64,000 nucleotides of DNA, from positions 576,353 through 640,352 of the forward strand of contig NZ_JABMLE010000002.1 of NCBI RefSeq assembly GCF_013205025.1, written 5' to 3'. Each line of letters starts with the position of its first letter. The first letter of the stretch is position 1. The position numbers and the translations under genes were made by a program. This DNA comes from Rathayibacter sp. VKM Ac-2857. Its GTDB lineage: Bacteria; Actinomycetota; Actinomycetes; Actinomycetales; Microbacteriaceae. Below, piece after piece: positions 35,564 through 41,669 of the stretch. The notes below the pieces were generated by a model, which was not told where the DNA came from, ran no database searches, and was given only the letters and a program-made list of their open reading frames with translations.

Positions 35564-36414
35564 GCGACGCCCGGCTGATCGCGTCGCCGTCCTACTCGGC
35601 CGAGCTGCGGGAGGCGGTGGCCGCGAGCGTCCGGGCGGCGGCGGAGGCGGCGCGCGGCTGGTACGGCCGGGGCGACAAGCTCGCCGCCGACGCGGCCTCG
35701 GTCGCGGCGATGCGCGCGGTGCTGGCCGAGGCGCCGTTCGCCGGCGTCGTCGTGATCGGCGAGGGCGAGAAGGACGACGCGCCGATGCTCGCGAACGGCG
35801 AGCGGCTCGGCCGGGCGGACTCCCCCTCCTGCGACGTCGCGGTCGACCCGCTCGACGGCACGCGGCTGACGGCGGAGGGGATCCCCGGATCGGTCTGCGT
35901 GATCGCACTCGCCCCGCGCGGCACGATGCTGGACCCGCGCGACGTCTTCTACATGGACAAGCTGGTCTGCTCCGGCGCGGGGGCGGGAGTCGTCGGGCTG
36001 GACCTGCCGCCCGCCGAGAACGCGCGACGGCTGGCGGAGGCCCTGGGCAAGCCGGTCTCCGAGCTCGTGGTCGCCGTGCTCGACAAGCCGCGGCACGCCG
36101 GGCTGATCGCGGCTCTGCGGGAGGCCGGCGTGGCGCTGTCGCTGCGCGGCGAGGGCGACGTGTCGGTCGCGATCGAGGCGGCCGACCCCTCCGGCTCCGT
36201 CGACCTGGTGCTCGGCATCGGCGGCACCCCCGAGGGCGTCGTCGCCGCCTGCGCCGTCCGAGCCCTCGGCGGCGTGATGGAGGGCCGCCTCGCCCCGCAG
36301 ACCGACCTCGAGCGCGCGAACGCCCTGGCCGCCGGCCACGACCTCACCCGCCTGCTGACCCTCGTCGACCTCGTCTCCTCCCCCGACGTCCTCTTCGCCG
36401 GCTGCGCGGTCTGA
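35560..36414 (+). CDS. Class II fructose-1,6-bisphosphatase (GlpX family)
   Basis: A 284-residue lithium-sensitive-phosphatase-fold enzyme. Metal and phosphate motifs are GVVVIGEGEKDDAPML, DVAVDPLDGTRLTAEG, MDKLVCSGAG and LGIGGTPEGVVAACAVRALGG. Family members are usually about 320-340 residues; this one is shorter mainly at the C-terminus, ending soon after the last helix. GTG at 35560 overlaps the anthranilate synthase stop (GTGA), a tight coupling that is unusual for a gluconeogenic enzyme. It might be the second GlpX of the organism, or act on another phosphate. Confidence 0.85.
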   Translation: MSDARLIASPSYSAELREAVAASVRAAAEAARGWYGRGDKLAADAASVAAMRAVLAEAPFAGVVVIGEGEKDDAPMLANGERLGRADSPSCDVAVDPLDGTRLTAEGIPGSVCVIALAPRGTMLDPRDVFYMDKLVCSGAGAGVVGLDLPPAENARRLAEALGKPVSELVVAVLDKPRHAGLIAALREAGVALSLRGEGDVSVAIEAADPSGSVDLVLGIGGTPEGVVAACAVRALGGVMEGRLAPQTDLERANALAAGHDLTRLLTLVDLVSSPDVLFAGCAV

Positions 36415-36420
36415 CTCCGC

Positions 36421-36481
36421 CGCGAGATGCCACTTGTGCACGCCTTTCACGGCGTGTCGCGTGCACAAGTGGCATCTCGCG
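36421..36481. repeat. 61-bp palindromic element, copy 3
   Basis: Perfect 23-base arms (36421-36443, 36459-36481) with loop CTTTCACGGCGTGTC, the reverse-complement orientation of copy 1. It begins 6 bases after the GlpX stop and lies between convergent genes. Confidence 0.9.
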
Positions 36482-36503
36482 GAGGGGATCAGGGGTGCGG
36501 GGA

Positions 36504-37331
36504 TCAGGGGGCGGCGGTGCCGTGGCGCCAGTAGCCGATGAAGGTGATGGCGCGCTTGTCGACGGCGCGGTCGGACACGAGGTGGCGGCGGGCGCCGGTG
36601 GCGAGGGAGGACTCGCCGACGGCGAAGACGGAGGGGCGGCCCGCGGGCAGGGTCGCGTCGCGCAGGACGGCGAGCGCGTGCTCGCCGGGGCGGGCGTGCG
36701 CGTCGGCACGGGGCAGCCAGTGCACGGTGACGGCGTCGGAGGCGACGACGGGCTGGCGGTCCGCCTCGGAGGGCAGCTCGAGGAAGACGTGCGCGGGCCG
36801 GTCCTCGGGGAGCGAGGCGAGGATGCCCGCGACCGCCGGCAGTCCCGTCTCGTCGGCGACGAGCAGGCACCAGTCGGAGCCGTCGGCCCGGCGGTAGCCG
36901 AGCCCCTGGTCGAGGATGCCGACCCGGTCGCCGACCGCGGCGGTGAGGGCGAACGTCACAGCGGGCCCCGCCTCCCCCGGCTCGCCGTGCACGACGAAGT
37001 CGACGTCGATCTCGGGCCCGCCGTCGGCGCCCTCGGCCCGGTAGCGGCGGACGGTGTAGTTGCGGACGACCGGCCGCTGCGCCTTCGGCATCGCGAGGTA
37101 CTGCGCGTACCAGAGCGCGCTCGAGCGGGTCGGCAGCCGCAGCGCCTCCTGCCCGGGTCGCGGCAGGAAGAGGCGGAACCACTGGTCGTGCCCGAGCGGG
37201 TGCAGCAGCGCCACCCCGGGCCCCCCGAAGGTGACCCGCTGCATCCCCGGCGTCACCCGCGCGGTGCGGACCACCTCGACGGTGACGACCTGCGGATCGG
37301 TGGGGCGGGTCGGGGCGTGCGAGCGGGCCAT
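36504..37331 (-). CDS. Siderophore-interacting protein (FAD ferric reductase)
   Basis: A 275-residue ViuB/SIP-type flavoprotein that reduces imported ferric-siderophore in the cytoplasm. VVRTARVTPGMQRVTFGGPG opens the beta barrel, and VRNYTVRRYRAEG is the R-x-Y-T/S FAD motif. DVDFVVHGEPGEAGPA (HGEPG) and WCLLVADETGLPAVAGILAS form the NAD(P)H-binding region, ending ITFIGYWRHG. ATG at 37331 has GGAGG 6 bases upstream. An iron box lies 38 bases upstream, so expression should rise under iron starvation. No siderophore transport genes are adjacent. Confidence 0.93.
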   Translation of the reverse strand: MARSHAPTRPTDPQVVTVEVVRTARVTPGMQRVTFGGPGVALLHPLGHDQWFRLFLPRPGQEALRLPTRSSALWYAQYLAMPKAQRPVVRNYTVRRYRAEGADGGPEIDVDFVVHGEPGEAGPAVTFALTAAVGDRVGILDQGLGYRRADGSDWCLLVADETGLPAVAGILASLPEDRPAHVFLELPSEADRQPVVASDAVTVHWLPRADAHARPGEHALAVLRDATLPAGRPSVFAVGESSLATGARRHLVSDRAVDKRAITFIGYWRHGTAAP

Positions 37332-37368
37332 GCGGAGCCTCCGGGCTGCGGGCGGACGCACCGCCAGG

Positions 37369-37387
37369 TTTGGTGAGGCTTACCTTA
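37369..37387 (-). promoter_or_regulatory. DtxR/IdeR-type iron box
   Basis: TTTGGTGAGGCTTACCTTA matches the 19-bp DtxR consensus TTAGGTTAGGCTAACCTAA at 15 positions. It is located 38 bases upstream of the siderophore-interacting protein start, where bound repressor would block initiation. The family and placement are well known; binding here is inferred. Confidence 0.78.
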
Positions 37388-37432
37388 CCGAGCCGCCTCT
37401 CGACCGTCGAGGAGCGCGCCGACGACGAGCTC

Positions 37433-37493
37433 CGCGAGATGCCACTTGTGCACGCCTTTCACGGCGTGTCGCGTGCACAAGTGGCATCTCGCG
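37433..37493. repeat. 61-bp palindromic element, copy 4
   Basis: Perfect arms (37433-37455, 37471-37493) and loop CTTTCACGGCGTGTC, identical to copy 3. It borders the four-gene ABC/secreted-protein unit on its 3' side. Copy 5 borders the other side in the same orientation. Confidence 0.9.
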
Positions 37494-37507
37494 GAGGGGA
37501 GCAGCCG

Positions 37508-38146
37508 TCAGGACATCGAGATGGTGCGGCCGTCGATCCGGAGGACGCCGTCGCACTCGGCGAGGAAGTCCGCCTCGCCGTGCATCGCGAGGAGAACGGT
37601 GACGCCCTGGGCCACCCGCTCGCGGAGGAGGTCCTTGACGACCGCGACGCTCTCGGTGTCGAGCGCGGTGAACGGCTCGTCGAGGAGGAGCACCTCCGGG
37701 TCCTCCATCAGAGCCTGCGCGAGGGACAGCTTCTGCTTCATCCCCGAGGAGAAGGTGCGGACCGCTGAGCGCCCCGTGCTCTGCAGACGTACCGAGGCGA
37801 GCGTCGCGCGGATCTCCTCGATCCCGATGCGCCTGCGGATCGCGGCCAGTCGCAGGAGGTTCTGCTCGGCGGAGAGGCCTGCGATGTAGGCGGGGCCGTC
37901 GATCGTGATCCCGAAGCCGTCCGGGAACGTCCGCCCTTCCGGCGAGATCGACGGGTCGACGCTGATGCTGCCCGAGTCCGGCCTGAGGAAGCCGCAGAGC
38001 AGCCGCAGCAGGACCGACTTCCCGGAGCCGTTCGGACCGAGGAGAGCGTAGAGCCCGCCTCGACGCAGCTCGAACGTCACGTCGCTGTAGAGCGGATTCC
38101 CGCGGATGCTCTTCGACACACCCTCGACTGTGATGGCGCTCGTCAT
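37508..38146 (-). CDS. ABC transporter ATP-binding protein of the secreted-protein unit
   Basis: A compact 212-residue ATPase. Walker A is LLGPNGSGKSVLLRLLCGFL near residue 36, the signature is FSSGMKQKLSLAQALMEDPE, Walker B is EVLLLDEPFTALD, and the switch His is in LLAMHGEADFL. The Q-loop region is unusual: the sequence GFGITIDGPAYIAGLSAEQN replaces the common xxQ. It is the last gene of the unit, overlapping the permease by ATGA. It should energise both membrane proteins. The nearest functional class is bacteriocin or peptide export and immunity ATPases (BcrA/EcsA-like); this is inference. Confidence 0.88.
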   Translation of the reverse strand: MTSAITVEGVSKSIRGNPLYSDVTFELRRGGLYALLGPNGSGKSVLLRLLCGFLRPDSGSISVDPSISPEGRTFPDGFGITIDGPAYIAGLSAEQNLLRLAAIRRRIGIEEIRATLASVRLQSTGRSAVRTFSSGMKQKLSLAQALMEDPEVLLLDEPFTALDTESVAVVKDLLRERVAQGVTVLLAMHGEADFLAECDGVLRIDGRTISMS

Positions 38147-39612
38147 GAGCGACCTCCTTCTGTTCTGCGATGCCTCTCGACCAGTCGAGACGCGATGACT
38201 GCTGCGACGAGGACGATGCAGGCGCTCCCCAGCGCCAGCGCCGTCCCCTGAAGGACGCTCGGCCAGCCCTCCGCACTCCTCCACAGACCCGCGATGCCGA
38301 GCGGGTTGCCCTCGAGGAGCTCGCTCGGCAGGAAGGCCAGCCCGGCCGAGAAGGCGGCGGGGAGAGCACCCGATCCGGCGAGCGGCGCGAAGGCGGAGGA
38401 GGCGACCGCGACCAGTGTCAACTGCAGCGTTCCGTTGACCAGGAGCTGGTAGCCCACCACCGGGTCGGCGAAAGACGCGAGCTCGCCGGGGGCGCCCCGC
38501 AGGAGCGCCTCGGCACCGGCCAGAGCGCCGACGAGCGCGCTCACTCCGAGTGCACGGGCGAGGAGCCCTGCGCCGAGTCGCCGATTCCGAGCGCCGCTCG
38601 ATCCGAACCGGATCAGCTCGCAGCGGAGGATCGGGCGTCGGGGATCGAGCTCGCTGAGCTGCCAGGTCAGCGCGAAGCCGGTGACGACGAGGACGGAGAA
38701 CAGAGTGGGTGCGAGAGCGCCCACCGGGCCTGCGAAGAGAGGACCGAGGACGCTCCCCTCGACCTCGGGTGTCGGATTCCCCTCCGAGACCGACTGGAGC
38801 CCCGTCGGTCCGAGCGCGACCGTGCCGATGAGGAGGACGTACACCGCCCATCCCACGCCCCACGACCGCGCCGCTCCGGACAGCCGGCGATCCTGCGCCC
38901 GCACGGCGCCGAGAAGGACGGCCCCGATCGAGAGGAGGACGACGAACGCGGCCAGCACGCCGAACGGCCGCTCGAGGTGGAGCGAGGAACTGGAGAGGAA
39001 CGCCGAGCTGACCGCGGAGTCCCTCGGGAGTCCCCCCGCCGCCGAGACGGCGAGCCAGCCGAGCAGCACCGTCGCCACCGCCCCGACGAGGACACCCCCG
39101 CCCGTGAGCACCCAGCAGGCGGAGAGGAGGGACCCGATCGTCGCGAGGAAGAGCAGGAGGAGCGGGAGCTGGAGCAGCACGCCGAGAAGCCGGGGCAGCG
39201 CGACTTCCGCGAGCAGTGCGCTCACCGATCCGGGCACGCGTGCGACGTCGTTCGCCAGCCCGAGCGAGCACACCCAGCACGTCGTGAGCACACCGAACAG
39301 GACGACCGCGGCGCTCGCCGCATCGCTGCGCAGGAGGACGAGGAGCACGCTCCTGAGCGATCCGGCCCGGATGCACACCGCCTCCGGAGGGAGGGACCTC
39401 GACGCCAGGAAGAAGGCGATGCACCACGGCGCTCCCAGTCCGTAGCAGACGAAGAGCGGGTCGTTCACGACTTCGACCGCCACGTCGACGAATCCGAACG
39501 AGGAACCCGACGCAGCCCAGAGCATCCGCTGGTGGATCGAGTACGCGGCGGCAGCAGCGAGAGCCCAGCCGGAGAGCAGCAGGCGGACGCGGCGGGAGAG
39601 CGACGCGATCAT
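38143..39612 (-). CDS. Large polytopic membrane protein, probable ABC permease
   Basis: A 489-residue protein with about 11-12 hydrophobic segments and no family I can name. Segments include LLLSGWALAAAAAYSI, VVLFGVLTTCWVCSLGL, LLQLPLLLLFLATIGSLLSA, VLVGAVATVLLGWLAVSAAG, FGVLAAFVVLLSIGAVLLGA and ALGSACIVLVAAVIASRLVE. Four-base ATGA overlaps on both sides lock it between the shorter permease and the ATPase. Codon use looks slightly less GC-biased than neighbouring operons. It likely forms the transmembrane part of the exporter with the 271-residue protein. Confidence 0.72.
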   Translation of the reverse strand: MIASLSRRVRLLLSGWALAAAAAYSIHQRMLWAASGSSFGFVDVAVEVVNDPLFVCYGLGAPWCIAFFLASRSLPPEAVCIRAGSLRSVLLVLLRSDAASAAVVLFGVLTTCWVCSLGLANDVARVPGSVSALLAEVALPRLLGVLLQLPLLLLFLATIGSLLSACWVLTGGGVLVGAVATVLLGWLAVSAAGGLPRDSAVSSAFLSSSSLHLERPFGVLAAFVVLLSIGAVLLGAVRAQDRRLSGAARSWGVGWAVYVLLIGTVALGPTGLQSVSEGNPTPEVEGSVLGPLFAGPVGALAPTLFSVLVVTGFALTWQLSELDPRRPILRCELIRFGSSGARNRRLGAGLLARALGVSALVGALAGAEALLRGAPGELASFADPVVGYQLLVNGTLQLTLVAVASSAFAPLAGSGALPAAFSAGLAFLPSELLEGNPLGIAGLWRSAEGWPSVLQGTALALGSACIVLVAAVIASRLVERHRRTEGGRS

Positions 39613-40424
39613 GTCAGCGCCGGGAGTCGCTGGGCCCTGCCGAGGATCCGCCGGGCGGCGAGAACCGTCGCCGCTCCAGCGACTGTGAGCGGCAGGACCA
39701 TGATGCCGACCGGCGCCTGATCGAGACCGAACGGGAAGGCTCCGTACAGGAATCCGAGAAGCGGACGGTCGAACAGGGCGACGGCCATCGTCTCGACGAA
39801 GAAGAGCGCTGCGGGCAGCACCATCGCCGGTCCCGTGCTCTTCAGCACGAACAGGGCGAGCACCCCCGCCACCGCCGCGATCGCGCCCCAGGCACCCAGC
39901 ACCGAGGAGTAGCCGAGCAGGTACACCGGCCAGCCGAAGGCGAGCAGCTGCGAGTAGTTCACGCGCTCCAGGGCGTTCCGTGCCACCTCGTCCGGTGCGA
40001 GTCCGTACACGACCGGATCGACGAAGGGCGAACCCAGCTCCGGCCAGATCCCGAAGGCGATCAGGCCGGGAAGGAGTGCGGCGACGAAGCCGAGCACGAA
40101 CCCTCCGAGGGCGACACTGATCACCCTGATCGTCAGGTAGGACCGGAGATCCGTCCGCGCGCGGACGAGGACGACGAACCTGTTCCTGATCTCGGCAGCG
40201 GTGCCGCTGCAGCAAGCCGTCGTGATGAAGACGGGGAAGAGGATGATCATCGGGGAGATCATGAACTGCGAGTAGACGTCGAGCTCATCGCGGTAGGCAC
40301 CGCCGCCCACCTCCGCCAGCCCGAGAGCCGTCGGACCGACGACGAGGATCGCACCGAGGAGCGCCTGCGGCCAGCGCAGCGACGACCGCAGATCGGTGAG
40401 GACCAGCGCGAAGCGCGAGGGCAC
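39609..40424 (-). CDS. Membrane protein, probable ABC permease
   Basis: A 271-residue protein with about six or seven segments: PQALLGAILVVGPTALGLAE, MISPMIILFPVFITTACCSG, ISVALGGFVLGFVAALLPGL, YSSVLGAWGAIAAVAGVLAL and IMVLPLTVAGAATVLAARRI. The loop GTAAEIRNRFVVLVRARTDL after the second segment resembles the coupling loop of ABC-2-like permeases. It starts 27 bases after the secreted-protein gene and is coupled to the next permease by ATGA. Not assignable to a named family by eye. Confidence 0.72.
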   Translation of the reverse strand: MPSRFALVLTDLRSSLRWPQALLGAILVVGPTALGLAEVGGGAYRDELDVYSQFMISPMIILFPVFITTACCSGTAAEIRNRFVVLVRARTDLRSYLTIRVISVALGGFVLGFVAALLPGLIAFGIWPELGSPFVDPVVYGLAPDEVARNALERVNYSQLLAFGWPVYLLGYSSVLGAWGAIAAVAGVLALFVLKSTGPAMVLPAALFFVETMAVALFDRPLLGFLYGAFPFGLDQAPVGIMVLPLTVAGAATVLAARRILGRAQRLPALT

Positions 40425-40451
40425 GGTCGTGTCGATGGTCGGGCTCCGGCT

Positions 40452-40856
40452 CTACCAGGCCTGCCACTGACCCCGCATGTGCACCTGATAGACGGTGAAG
40501 GGGGTCGTTCGAAGCGCGGACGTGAGAGTCTCGGTACCCGCCGCATAGCTGTTCGGGAGCCCGTGGACGGTGTTGTCGTCGGCGATCGAGAAGATCTTCG
40601 TGCCCTTGTCGCAGTTGACGAGCGCCTGGCACATCTGCGCGTCCATCTTGTAGTCGCCACCGATCTCCCGGAGCTGAATGGTGCCGTTGCGGTTCGACTC
40701 GTACTTCGTCTGGTACGTGGTCGACGTCGGCGACTGGAACCCGCCGGCGTTCTTGTCGAAGCTGTCGGCGAAGACGTTCGCCTGCGCCGTCGCCGCCATC
40801 CCGACGCTCAGCAGGACTGCTCCTGTGATGGAGGCGATTCGTGTCGATCTCTTCAT
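40452..40856 (-). CDS. Small secreted protein encoded with an ABC transporter
   Basis: A 134-residue precursor. MKRSTRIASITGAVLLSVGM followed by AATAQA is a Sec signal peptide with likely cleavage after residue 26, leaving about 108 residues. The mature part is polar, contains two Cys in MCQALVNC and ends in VYQVHMRGQWQAW. No family is recognisable. ATG at 40856 has GAGGGA upstream; a longer frame from 40901 would not begin with a signal. It is the first gene of the unit and its AT-rich promoter region (GATCATATAGATG near 40900) contrasts with the GC-rich surroundings. It may be a bacteriocin-like effector, a lipid-binding factor or a signal handled by the ABC complex. Confidence 0.72.
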   Translation of the reverse strand: MKRSTRIASITGAVLLSVGMAATAQANVFADSFDKNAGGFQSPTSTTYQTKYESNRNGTIQLREIGGDYKMDAQMCQALVNCDKGTKIFSIADDNTVHGLPNSYAAGTETLTSALRTTPFTVYQVHMRGQWQAW

Positions 40857-40989
40857 GGCCGTCCCTCGATCCGTCGGTCGAGCCGAGCGCTGCGACCACA
40901 TCTATATGATCACGAAGCGAGGAAGTATCACATACCCCTCTTCGGGGCACGAGGGTGTGACCGCTTCGGTTCCTGCTGCACTCCATCCC

Positions 40990-41050
40990 CGCGAGATGCC
41001 ACTTGTGCACGCCTTTCACGGCGTGTCGGGTGCACAAGTGGCATCTCGCG
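40990..41050. repeat. 61-bp palindromic element, copy 5
   Basis: Arms 40990-41012 and 41028-41050 pair with one mismatch (GGGTGC in place of GCGTGC). The loop CTTTCACGGCGTGTC is identical to copies 3 and 4. It separates the secreted-protein promoter from the tRNA-Met terminator. Confidence 0.9.
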
Positions 41051-41072
41051 GGAGGAGTGCGGCGGGGACGAC

Positions 41073-41107
41073 GAAGGCCCCGGCTCGACGTGCGAACCGG
41101 GGCCTTC
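41073..41107 (-). terminator. Terminator after tRNA-Met
   Basis: Arms GAAGGCCCCGG (41073-41083) and CCGGGGCCTTC (41097-41107) pair perfectly with a 13-base loop. It lies 6 bases past the tRNA-Met 3' end on the minus strand. Confidence 0.8.
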
Positions 41108-41113
41108 TCGATG

Positions 41114-41294: not shown

Positions 41295-41411
41295 GCACCT
41301 GCGGGTCTGACTGCCCCTCTCGGGGCGTGCCCGCGATTTGGCACCGTTAGACGATAGCACCTCCGAGAGGCGGTGTTGACCGCGGTGGTGGAGGGGTGGT
41401 CCGGGCGGGGA

Positions 41412-41669
41412 GGGTCTCGATACGCCCGCGCTGCGGGCTACTCGACCAGCAAGGAACGAGCGGTCCCCTCCGCTTCTGGAGCAGCCGCGCCCGTCATGCT
41501 GGTCGAGTAGCACCGGAGGGGCGTATCGAGACCCGCCGTCGTCAGCAGGGCGGGTCTGCGGACTCCCGTTCTGACGCTGGTCGATCTCGATACGCCCGCT
41601 CCGCGGGCTACTCGATCAGCATGAAGGCGCCGGTCGAGCAGCCGCGCAGCGGCGTATCGAGACCCGCCT
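41412..41669. repeat. Dispersed large inverted repeat cluster, three segments
   Basis: A right half only (41412-41453), a near-complete copy (41495-41623; CATGCTGGTCGAGTAG to CTCGATCAGCATG), and a left half (41631-41669). They occupy most of the 373-bp gap between the tRNAs and the aldo/keto reductase; no gene is visible in the remainder. Confidence 0.8.

Follow-up and report, generated by a model that had tools for sequence, protein, structure and literature searches.

A cassette pairing a secreted protein with an ABC transporter in Rathayibacter is probably a bacteriocin-type system

What is the function of a gene cassette that places a small secreted protein of no recognised family beside a transporter of the ATP-binding cassette (ABC) type? 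The question is raised by a 64,000-nucleotide stretch of Rathayibacter sp. VKM Ac-2857 (contig NZ_JABMLE010000002.1, positions 576,353 to 640,352; this whole stretch is called the window below), in which four genes, flanked by glpX on one side and by tRNA-Met and tRNA-Thr genes on the other, encode a secreted protein, two membrane proteins termed PER1 and PER2, and an ATPase (Table 1). Of the functions suggested in a preliminary description of this DNA, the best supported is that of a bacteriocin-type effector accompanied by proteins for its export or for immunity, and we put at roughly 0.6 the probability that the cassette is a bacteriocin-type system, in which a secreted effector is accompanied by ABC immunity proteins. 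Our reasons are the association of the secreted gene with ABC genes at all 22 loci examined, the existence of ABC sets without a detectable effector, the loss of most of the effector gene at the locus of one congener (G682) and the presence of a relative on a small mobilizable plasmid; to these may be added a patchy distribution, correlated distances between the genes, a cluster of amino-acid changes in codons 85-132 of a paralogous secreted gene, and a parallel with lactococcin 972 (Lcn972).

The 22 secreted-family loci (the window, L014-L017, L032-L045, L079, L085 and L088) were searched for neighbouring genes with profiles built without the locus being tested, near-identical relatives being kept, and the ATPase was sought with the window protein. 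PER1 and the ATPase adjoin the secreted gene in 22/22, the ATPase of L040 running into the contig end, and PER2 was found beside it by profile in 21/22, where the remaining locus, L039, has a 504-residue open reading frame (ORF) with nine transmembrane (TM) segments in the PER2 place. The secreted gene has the same direction as the ABC genes in 19 of the 22 loci, and is convergent in L037 and divergent in L044 and L045; there is a stop within the secreted gene of L034, and L015 has a short ATPase ORF. The preliminary description had asked whether the four genes always occur together, and this holds for the secreted gene but not for the ABC genes: of 299 genomes of the bacterial family, 15 contain PER1, at 17 places in all, and while the secreted gene is found at seven of these, nine have PER2 and the ATPase with no detectable secreted gene, and one (in G232) is of another kind. 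A simple script found no other convincing leader-bearing ORF near the nine effector-less sets, although a very divergent effector may escape it. In G089, two near-duplicate PER1-PER2-ATPase sets (L023 and L024) have no detectable secreted gene and carry a PadR-family regulator gene directly upstream. The G232 place (L080, 4310-5655) has PER1 with no PER2 or ATPase within the 10 kb fetched, and a leader-like ORF of 181 residues, belonging to no Pfam family, overlaps PER1 upstream.

In G682, an in-frame reduction has left the secreted gene of the window-type cassette with 23 codons, and the three ABC genes (PER1, PER2 and ATPase) are full-length. Between G682 and the window, the ratio of nonsynonymous to synonymous substitution rates (dN/dS) is 0.36 for PER1, 0.32 for PER2 and 0.30 for the ATPase, compared with 0.10 for glpX; the values for the ABC genes would fit purifying selection, but they also span the time before the secreted gene was cut. 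An effector accompanied by the pump at all loci examined, a pump that often lacks a detectable effector, and the shortening of the effector gene alone at the G682 locus together make up the pattern of a toxin and its immunity. G682 retains its other cassette, and a paralogous second cassette with the same gene order is present in the genome of VKM Ac-2857 itself (G000:C1:879-882.5 kb). Between G000 and G682, the secreted gene of the second cassette has 13 nonsynonymous codon differences, every one of them in codons 85-132, and 13 synonymous ones, of which 6 lie before codon 85. Since dN/dS for the whole gene is 0.25, the clustered changes point to local relaxation or diversification and not to gene-wide positive selection.

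Relatives of the cassette are patchily distributed in Micrococcales and Bacillota. Counting the genome of VKM Ac-2857, carriers of the secreted family number at least 6 of 299 genomes of the bacterial family (4 found with the window protein, with G066 and G117 added by way of PER1), 6 of 396 genomes of the order (five-member profile) and 1 of 394 genomes of the class (17-member profile); the profile matches 2 of 15 genomes of the genus. A scan of contigs gave six named loci, in Halalkalibacterium, a Janibacter bin, an uncultured Clostridiales, two Brachybacterium bins and Cryobacterium shii, while phage records gave no match and scans of viral contigs no relative of the secreted family. Relatives are also carried by four Priestia plasmid records, of which three were inspected; one plasmid of 9,971 bp, which encodes a MobQ relaxase and is annotated with 11 features, carries the whole cassette, its PER2 of 505 residues spanning the origin of the record. 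The cassette of the Priestia aryabhattai plasmid pHJT3_2 consists of the secreted gene, two permease genes and the ATPase gene. Over 18 cassettes, distances between genes are correlated (Mantel r of 0.54 for secreted protein and PER1, 0.56 for secreted protein and ATPase, and 0.87 for PER1 and ATPase), each test reaching the floor of 5,000 permutations.

At E<=1 the secreted protein of the window is matched by nothing in Pfam or NCBIfam, a nine-member profile matched none of the PDB sequences, and Pfam scans of the window protein and its relatives found no toxin homology; a literature search returned, among the matches listed, no paper on the family, although unlisted papers are possible. Both the secreted protein and the large permease had been described as belonging to no family that could be recognised, which agrees with our scans, as neither reached a Pfam or NCBIfam cut-off. 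The two outcomes named beforehand as contrary to the proposed function did not arise, in that no known family was matched and the secreted gene was never found apart from the ABC genes. Read by eye, the leader takes up residues 1-26, with AQA at its end, and leaves 108 residues, consistent with the Sec-type protein of that mature length described previously, but the cysteines, C76 and C82, are separated by five residues and not by six (CxxxxxxC), and the pair is missing in 12 of 17 aligned members of the family. The family is predicted to be all-beta: strands are predicted in the model of the relative L037 (predicted local distance difference test, pLDDT, 64.9), whose structural matches are common beta-sandwiches only, and strand prediction for the window protein is of low confidence.

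The ATPase is, from its Walker A motif and its match to PF00005 (9.6e-27, residues 21-159; Pfam), clearly a member of the ABC transporters in general. Its best NCBIfam match is TIGR03740, the lantibiotic protection family, but at 127.3 bits against a cut-off of 309.75 it was rejected as a member. Pfam has no match for the window PER1 or PER2 at E<=1, and NCBIfam gives a single row for each, below cut-off. PER2 appears from its sequence to be double-length and duplicated; there is an R-x-G-S motif in each half (residues 82 and 335), and the protein is split into two ORFs in the relative L079. The FtsX domain is not among the Pfam matches (E<=1) of 16 PER1 or 17 PER2 proteins, and one of the 16 PER1 proteins has a row for PF03707, a repeat of signalling proteins, at the chance level of 0.034. 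No model of the bacteriocin-associated integral membrane family was matched by the 17 PER2 proteins (Pfam and NCBIfam, E<=1), and no LanE or LanG model of NCBIfam by these or by the window PER1, the NCBIfam scan having covered one of the 16 PER1 proteins, that of the window.

The arrangement has counterparts among known systems, of which Lcn972 is, judged by analogy, the closest working one. Lcn972 is antibacterial at the cell wall, where it binds lipid II; it is exported via Sec, and the mature peptide has about 66 residues. The secreted protein described here has, by eye in the window and in relatives, a Sec-type leader as well, but is longer in its mature form, at about 103-108 residues, and the cassette has two permease genes, one of double length, where Lcn972 has one integral membrane protein. 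The Lcn972 and streptococcin B loci are like the cassette in being accessory and in that a bacteriocin gene adjoins genes for a putative ABC immunity pair. A section of one report places the Lcn972 structural gene and putative ABC immunity pair on a plasmid of about 11 kb (PMC4055356), whereas a passage in another has Lcn972 exported by the ABC transporter instead of via Sec (PMC11161930). On streptococcin B, passages of a further paper state that some pneumococcal strains without functional peptide have scbBC, that the roles of scbBC are unverified, and that peptide-less strains fail to activate the locus on their own (PMC11796350).

Neither direct nor profile-profile tests detected membership of the Lactococcin 972 family (PF09683) for the secreted protein, whose family stands apart from it. 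PF09683 was matched neither by the window protein (E<=1), nor by nine members of the secreted family (E<=10), nor by seven further members (E<=1), and profile-profile comparison with 17 PF09683 relatives gave a probability of 0.3% (E 0.19), compared with 99.9% in a split-family control. PF09683 itself is found in 16 of 150 genomes of the bacterial family, and VKM Ac-2857 has one genuine member at another place in its genome (G000:C2:1135763-1135948, L104).

LanFEG transporters (NisFEG, MutFEG) likewise combine one ATPase with two permease genes, and the window ATPase is nearest to their TIGR03740 family. They differ in that its score falls below the TIGR03740 cut-off, in that the permeases match no LanE or LanG model, and in the length of PER2, an apparently duplicated protein about twice as long as the usual ABC permease. 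BceAB is comparable as an ABC pump acting on envelope-active peptides, but differs in the FtsX domain, which is absent from the Pfam matches of PER1 and PER2.

In the bacteriocin-type system that we propose, the secreted protein would leave the cell via the Sec pathway, fold outside as a small beta-sandwich, and inhibit related Gram-positive bacteria at the envelope. PER1, PER2 and the ATPase would make up an ABC transporter dedicated to protecting the producer, which either expels the secreted protein or removes it from the target, in the manner of LanFEG or of the presumed transporter of Lcn972. Secretion, killing activity, target and immunity are what we infer from the genes, and the ABC set is taken to confer immunity and not export because of the leader and because ABC sets occur without detectable effectors and not the reverse. 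It is about as likely as not that the cassette represents an undescribed class of bacteriocins. Its members would be secreted via Sec, have about 105 residues and a beta-sandwich fold, be unmodified (no search aimed at lantibiotic modification genes was made) and show no sequence relationship to lactococcin 972; they would have a dedicated ABC immunity transporter of one single and one double-length permease, and the cassette would be mobile between Actinomycetota and Bacillota, including on a 10-kb plasmid. If true, a class of bacteriocins in actinobacteria and bacilli would have been missed by searches for known families. The G682 locus, with its effector cut and ABC genes full-length, would be a naturally occurring test of the idea of immunity, the 10-kb Priestia plasmid offers a compact system for laboratory bacilli, and the double-length PER2, split in L079, is relevant to the assembly of ABC pumps linked to bacteriocins.

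The Mantel correlation could be explained by shared descent alone. The ABC sets without detectable effector at 9 of 17 PER1 places would also suit a resistance or detoxification pump directed at foreign antimicrobials, the secreted protein being a surface sensor, decoy or chaperone that improves the pump where it is present. This explanation, which we consider unlikely, gains from the PadR-family regulator gene upstream of both G089 copies, as for an inducible pump, and from the resemblance of the ATPase to lantibiotic-protection ATPases, albeit below cut-off. It does not sit easily with a secreted gene that stays with the ABC genes over two phyla, including on a 10-kb plasmid, and the clustered amino-acid changes suit an antagonist somewhat better than a chaperone.

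A signal or adhesin that is sensed or processed by the ABC complex, the other function suggested previously, we consider improbable. The pairing of a secreted protein with a membrane complex and the lack of toxin homology would suit it, but the permeases match no FtsX or sensor domain save the chance-level PF03707 row, and G682 would unexpectedly have lost the signal gene while its receptor genes stayed full-length; the neighbours of the relatives were not scanned systematically for kinases or regulators. That the ABC set exports another substrate, beside a loosely linked gene for an envelope protein, might be suggested by the varying gene orientation (convergent or divergent at three loci), but is most improbable given the 22/22 association over two phyla, the distance correlation and the joint presence on a small plasmid.

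Returning to the putative bacteriocin cassette of the window, all four minus-strand genes were confirmed, among them those of the two membrane proteins, of 271 and 489 residues as first described, and of the compact ATPase, a PF00005 protein. Coupling by ATGA overlaps of 4 bp had been claimed throughout and is confined to PER1/PER2 (39609-39612) and PER2/ATPase (38143-38146), the secreted gene being separated from PER1 by 27 bp. The claim of an AT-rich promoter agrees with a composition richer in A+T than the surroundings: the stretch upstream of the secreted gene has 61.9% G+C and the gene itself 62.7%, compared with 72.35% for the window.

Table 1. Coordinates of the cassette genes and of nearby palindrome copies in the window.
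Feature	Position	Strand	Remarks
Secreted-protein gene, 134 aa	40452..40856	-	translation; leader of ~26 residues + ~108 residues
Sec-type signal peptide, residues 1-26 (MKRS...AQA)	40779..40856	-	read from translation; similar leaders in aligned relatives
Membrane protein PER1, 271 aa, GTG start	39609..40424	-	hydropathy gives ~6 TM segments
Membrane protein PER2, 489 aa	38143..39612	-	two weakly similar halves
ABC ATPase, 212 aa, Walker A GPNGSGKSV	37508..38146	-	PF00005 match
Palindrome copy 3	36421..36481	.	between glpX and siderophore-interacting-protein gene; left end of segment absent in G116 and G680
Palindrome copy 4	37433..37493	.	just past ATPase gene
Palindrome copy 5	40990..41050	.	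between tRNA-Met gene and operon

The cassette had also been presented as an island bounded by two 61-bp palindromes of the same orientation. Copies 4 and 5 do lie at its two ends and share their orientation, but differ by one base. Further copies lie in the window at about 9710 and 17464; copies 3, 4 and 5 are oriented alike, and copies 1 and 2 oppositely. The palindrome, which is near-perfect, occurs at no fewer than 44 separate places in the genome of VKM Ac-2857 (hand count) and in 15/15 genomes of the genus, this one included, with 7 to 80 matches listed in each, both strands being counted; the genes on either side are convergent at 10 of the 27 copies examined, and the loop is found in both orientations. 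Palindromes at the ends of the cassette are by themselves no evidence of an island, and given such genus-wide dispersal the claim that they bound one is weak.

Comparison of the glpX-tRNA locus in 14 congeners and in VKM Ac-2857 shows that the site between glpX and tRNA-Met (36414-41113) is variable, being empty with or without a palindrome, or containing the siderophore gene only, an inverted cassette, or other genes. G116 and G680 have neither the siderophore-interacting-protein gene nor the cassette; their single palindrome stands between the sequence that flanks copy 3 on the left and that which flanks copy 5 on the right. In G678 and G679, too, glpX adjoins the tRNA genes, here without any palindrome, which is therefore not required for the empty state. 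The cassette of G682 is inverted with respect to its flanks, with a single palindrome on the tRNA side. Since any two copies can recombine either way, the palindrome is a plausible substrate for the observed deletion and inversion, and recombination between copies would explain the two empty sites and the one inverted cassette. At this site G045 and G263 carry the siderophore gene but lack a cassette; other species have other genes there, in G221 an unrelated-looking ABC transporter beside a response-regulator gene (by eye). Between the tRNA genes and the next gene, at about 41409-41668, lies a member of a dispersed repeat family of about 130-260 bp, with matches of about 75-92% identity at many sites in the genomes of VKM Ac-2857 and its relatives.
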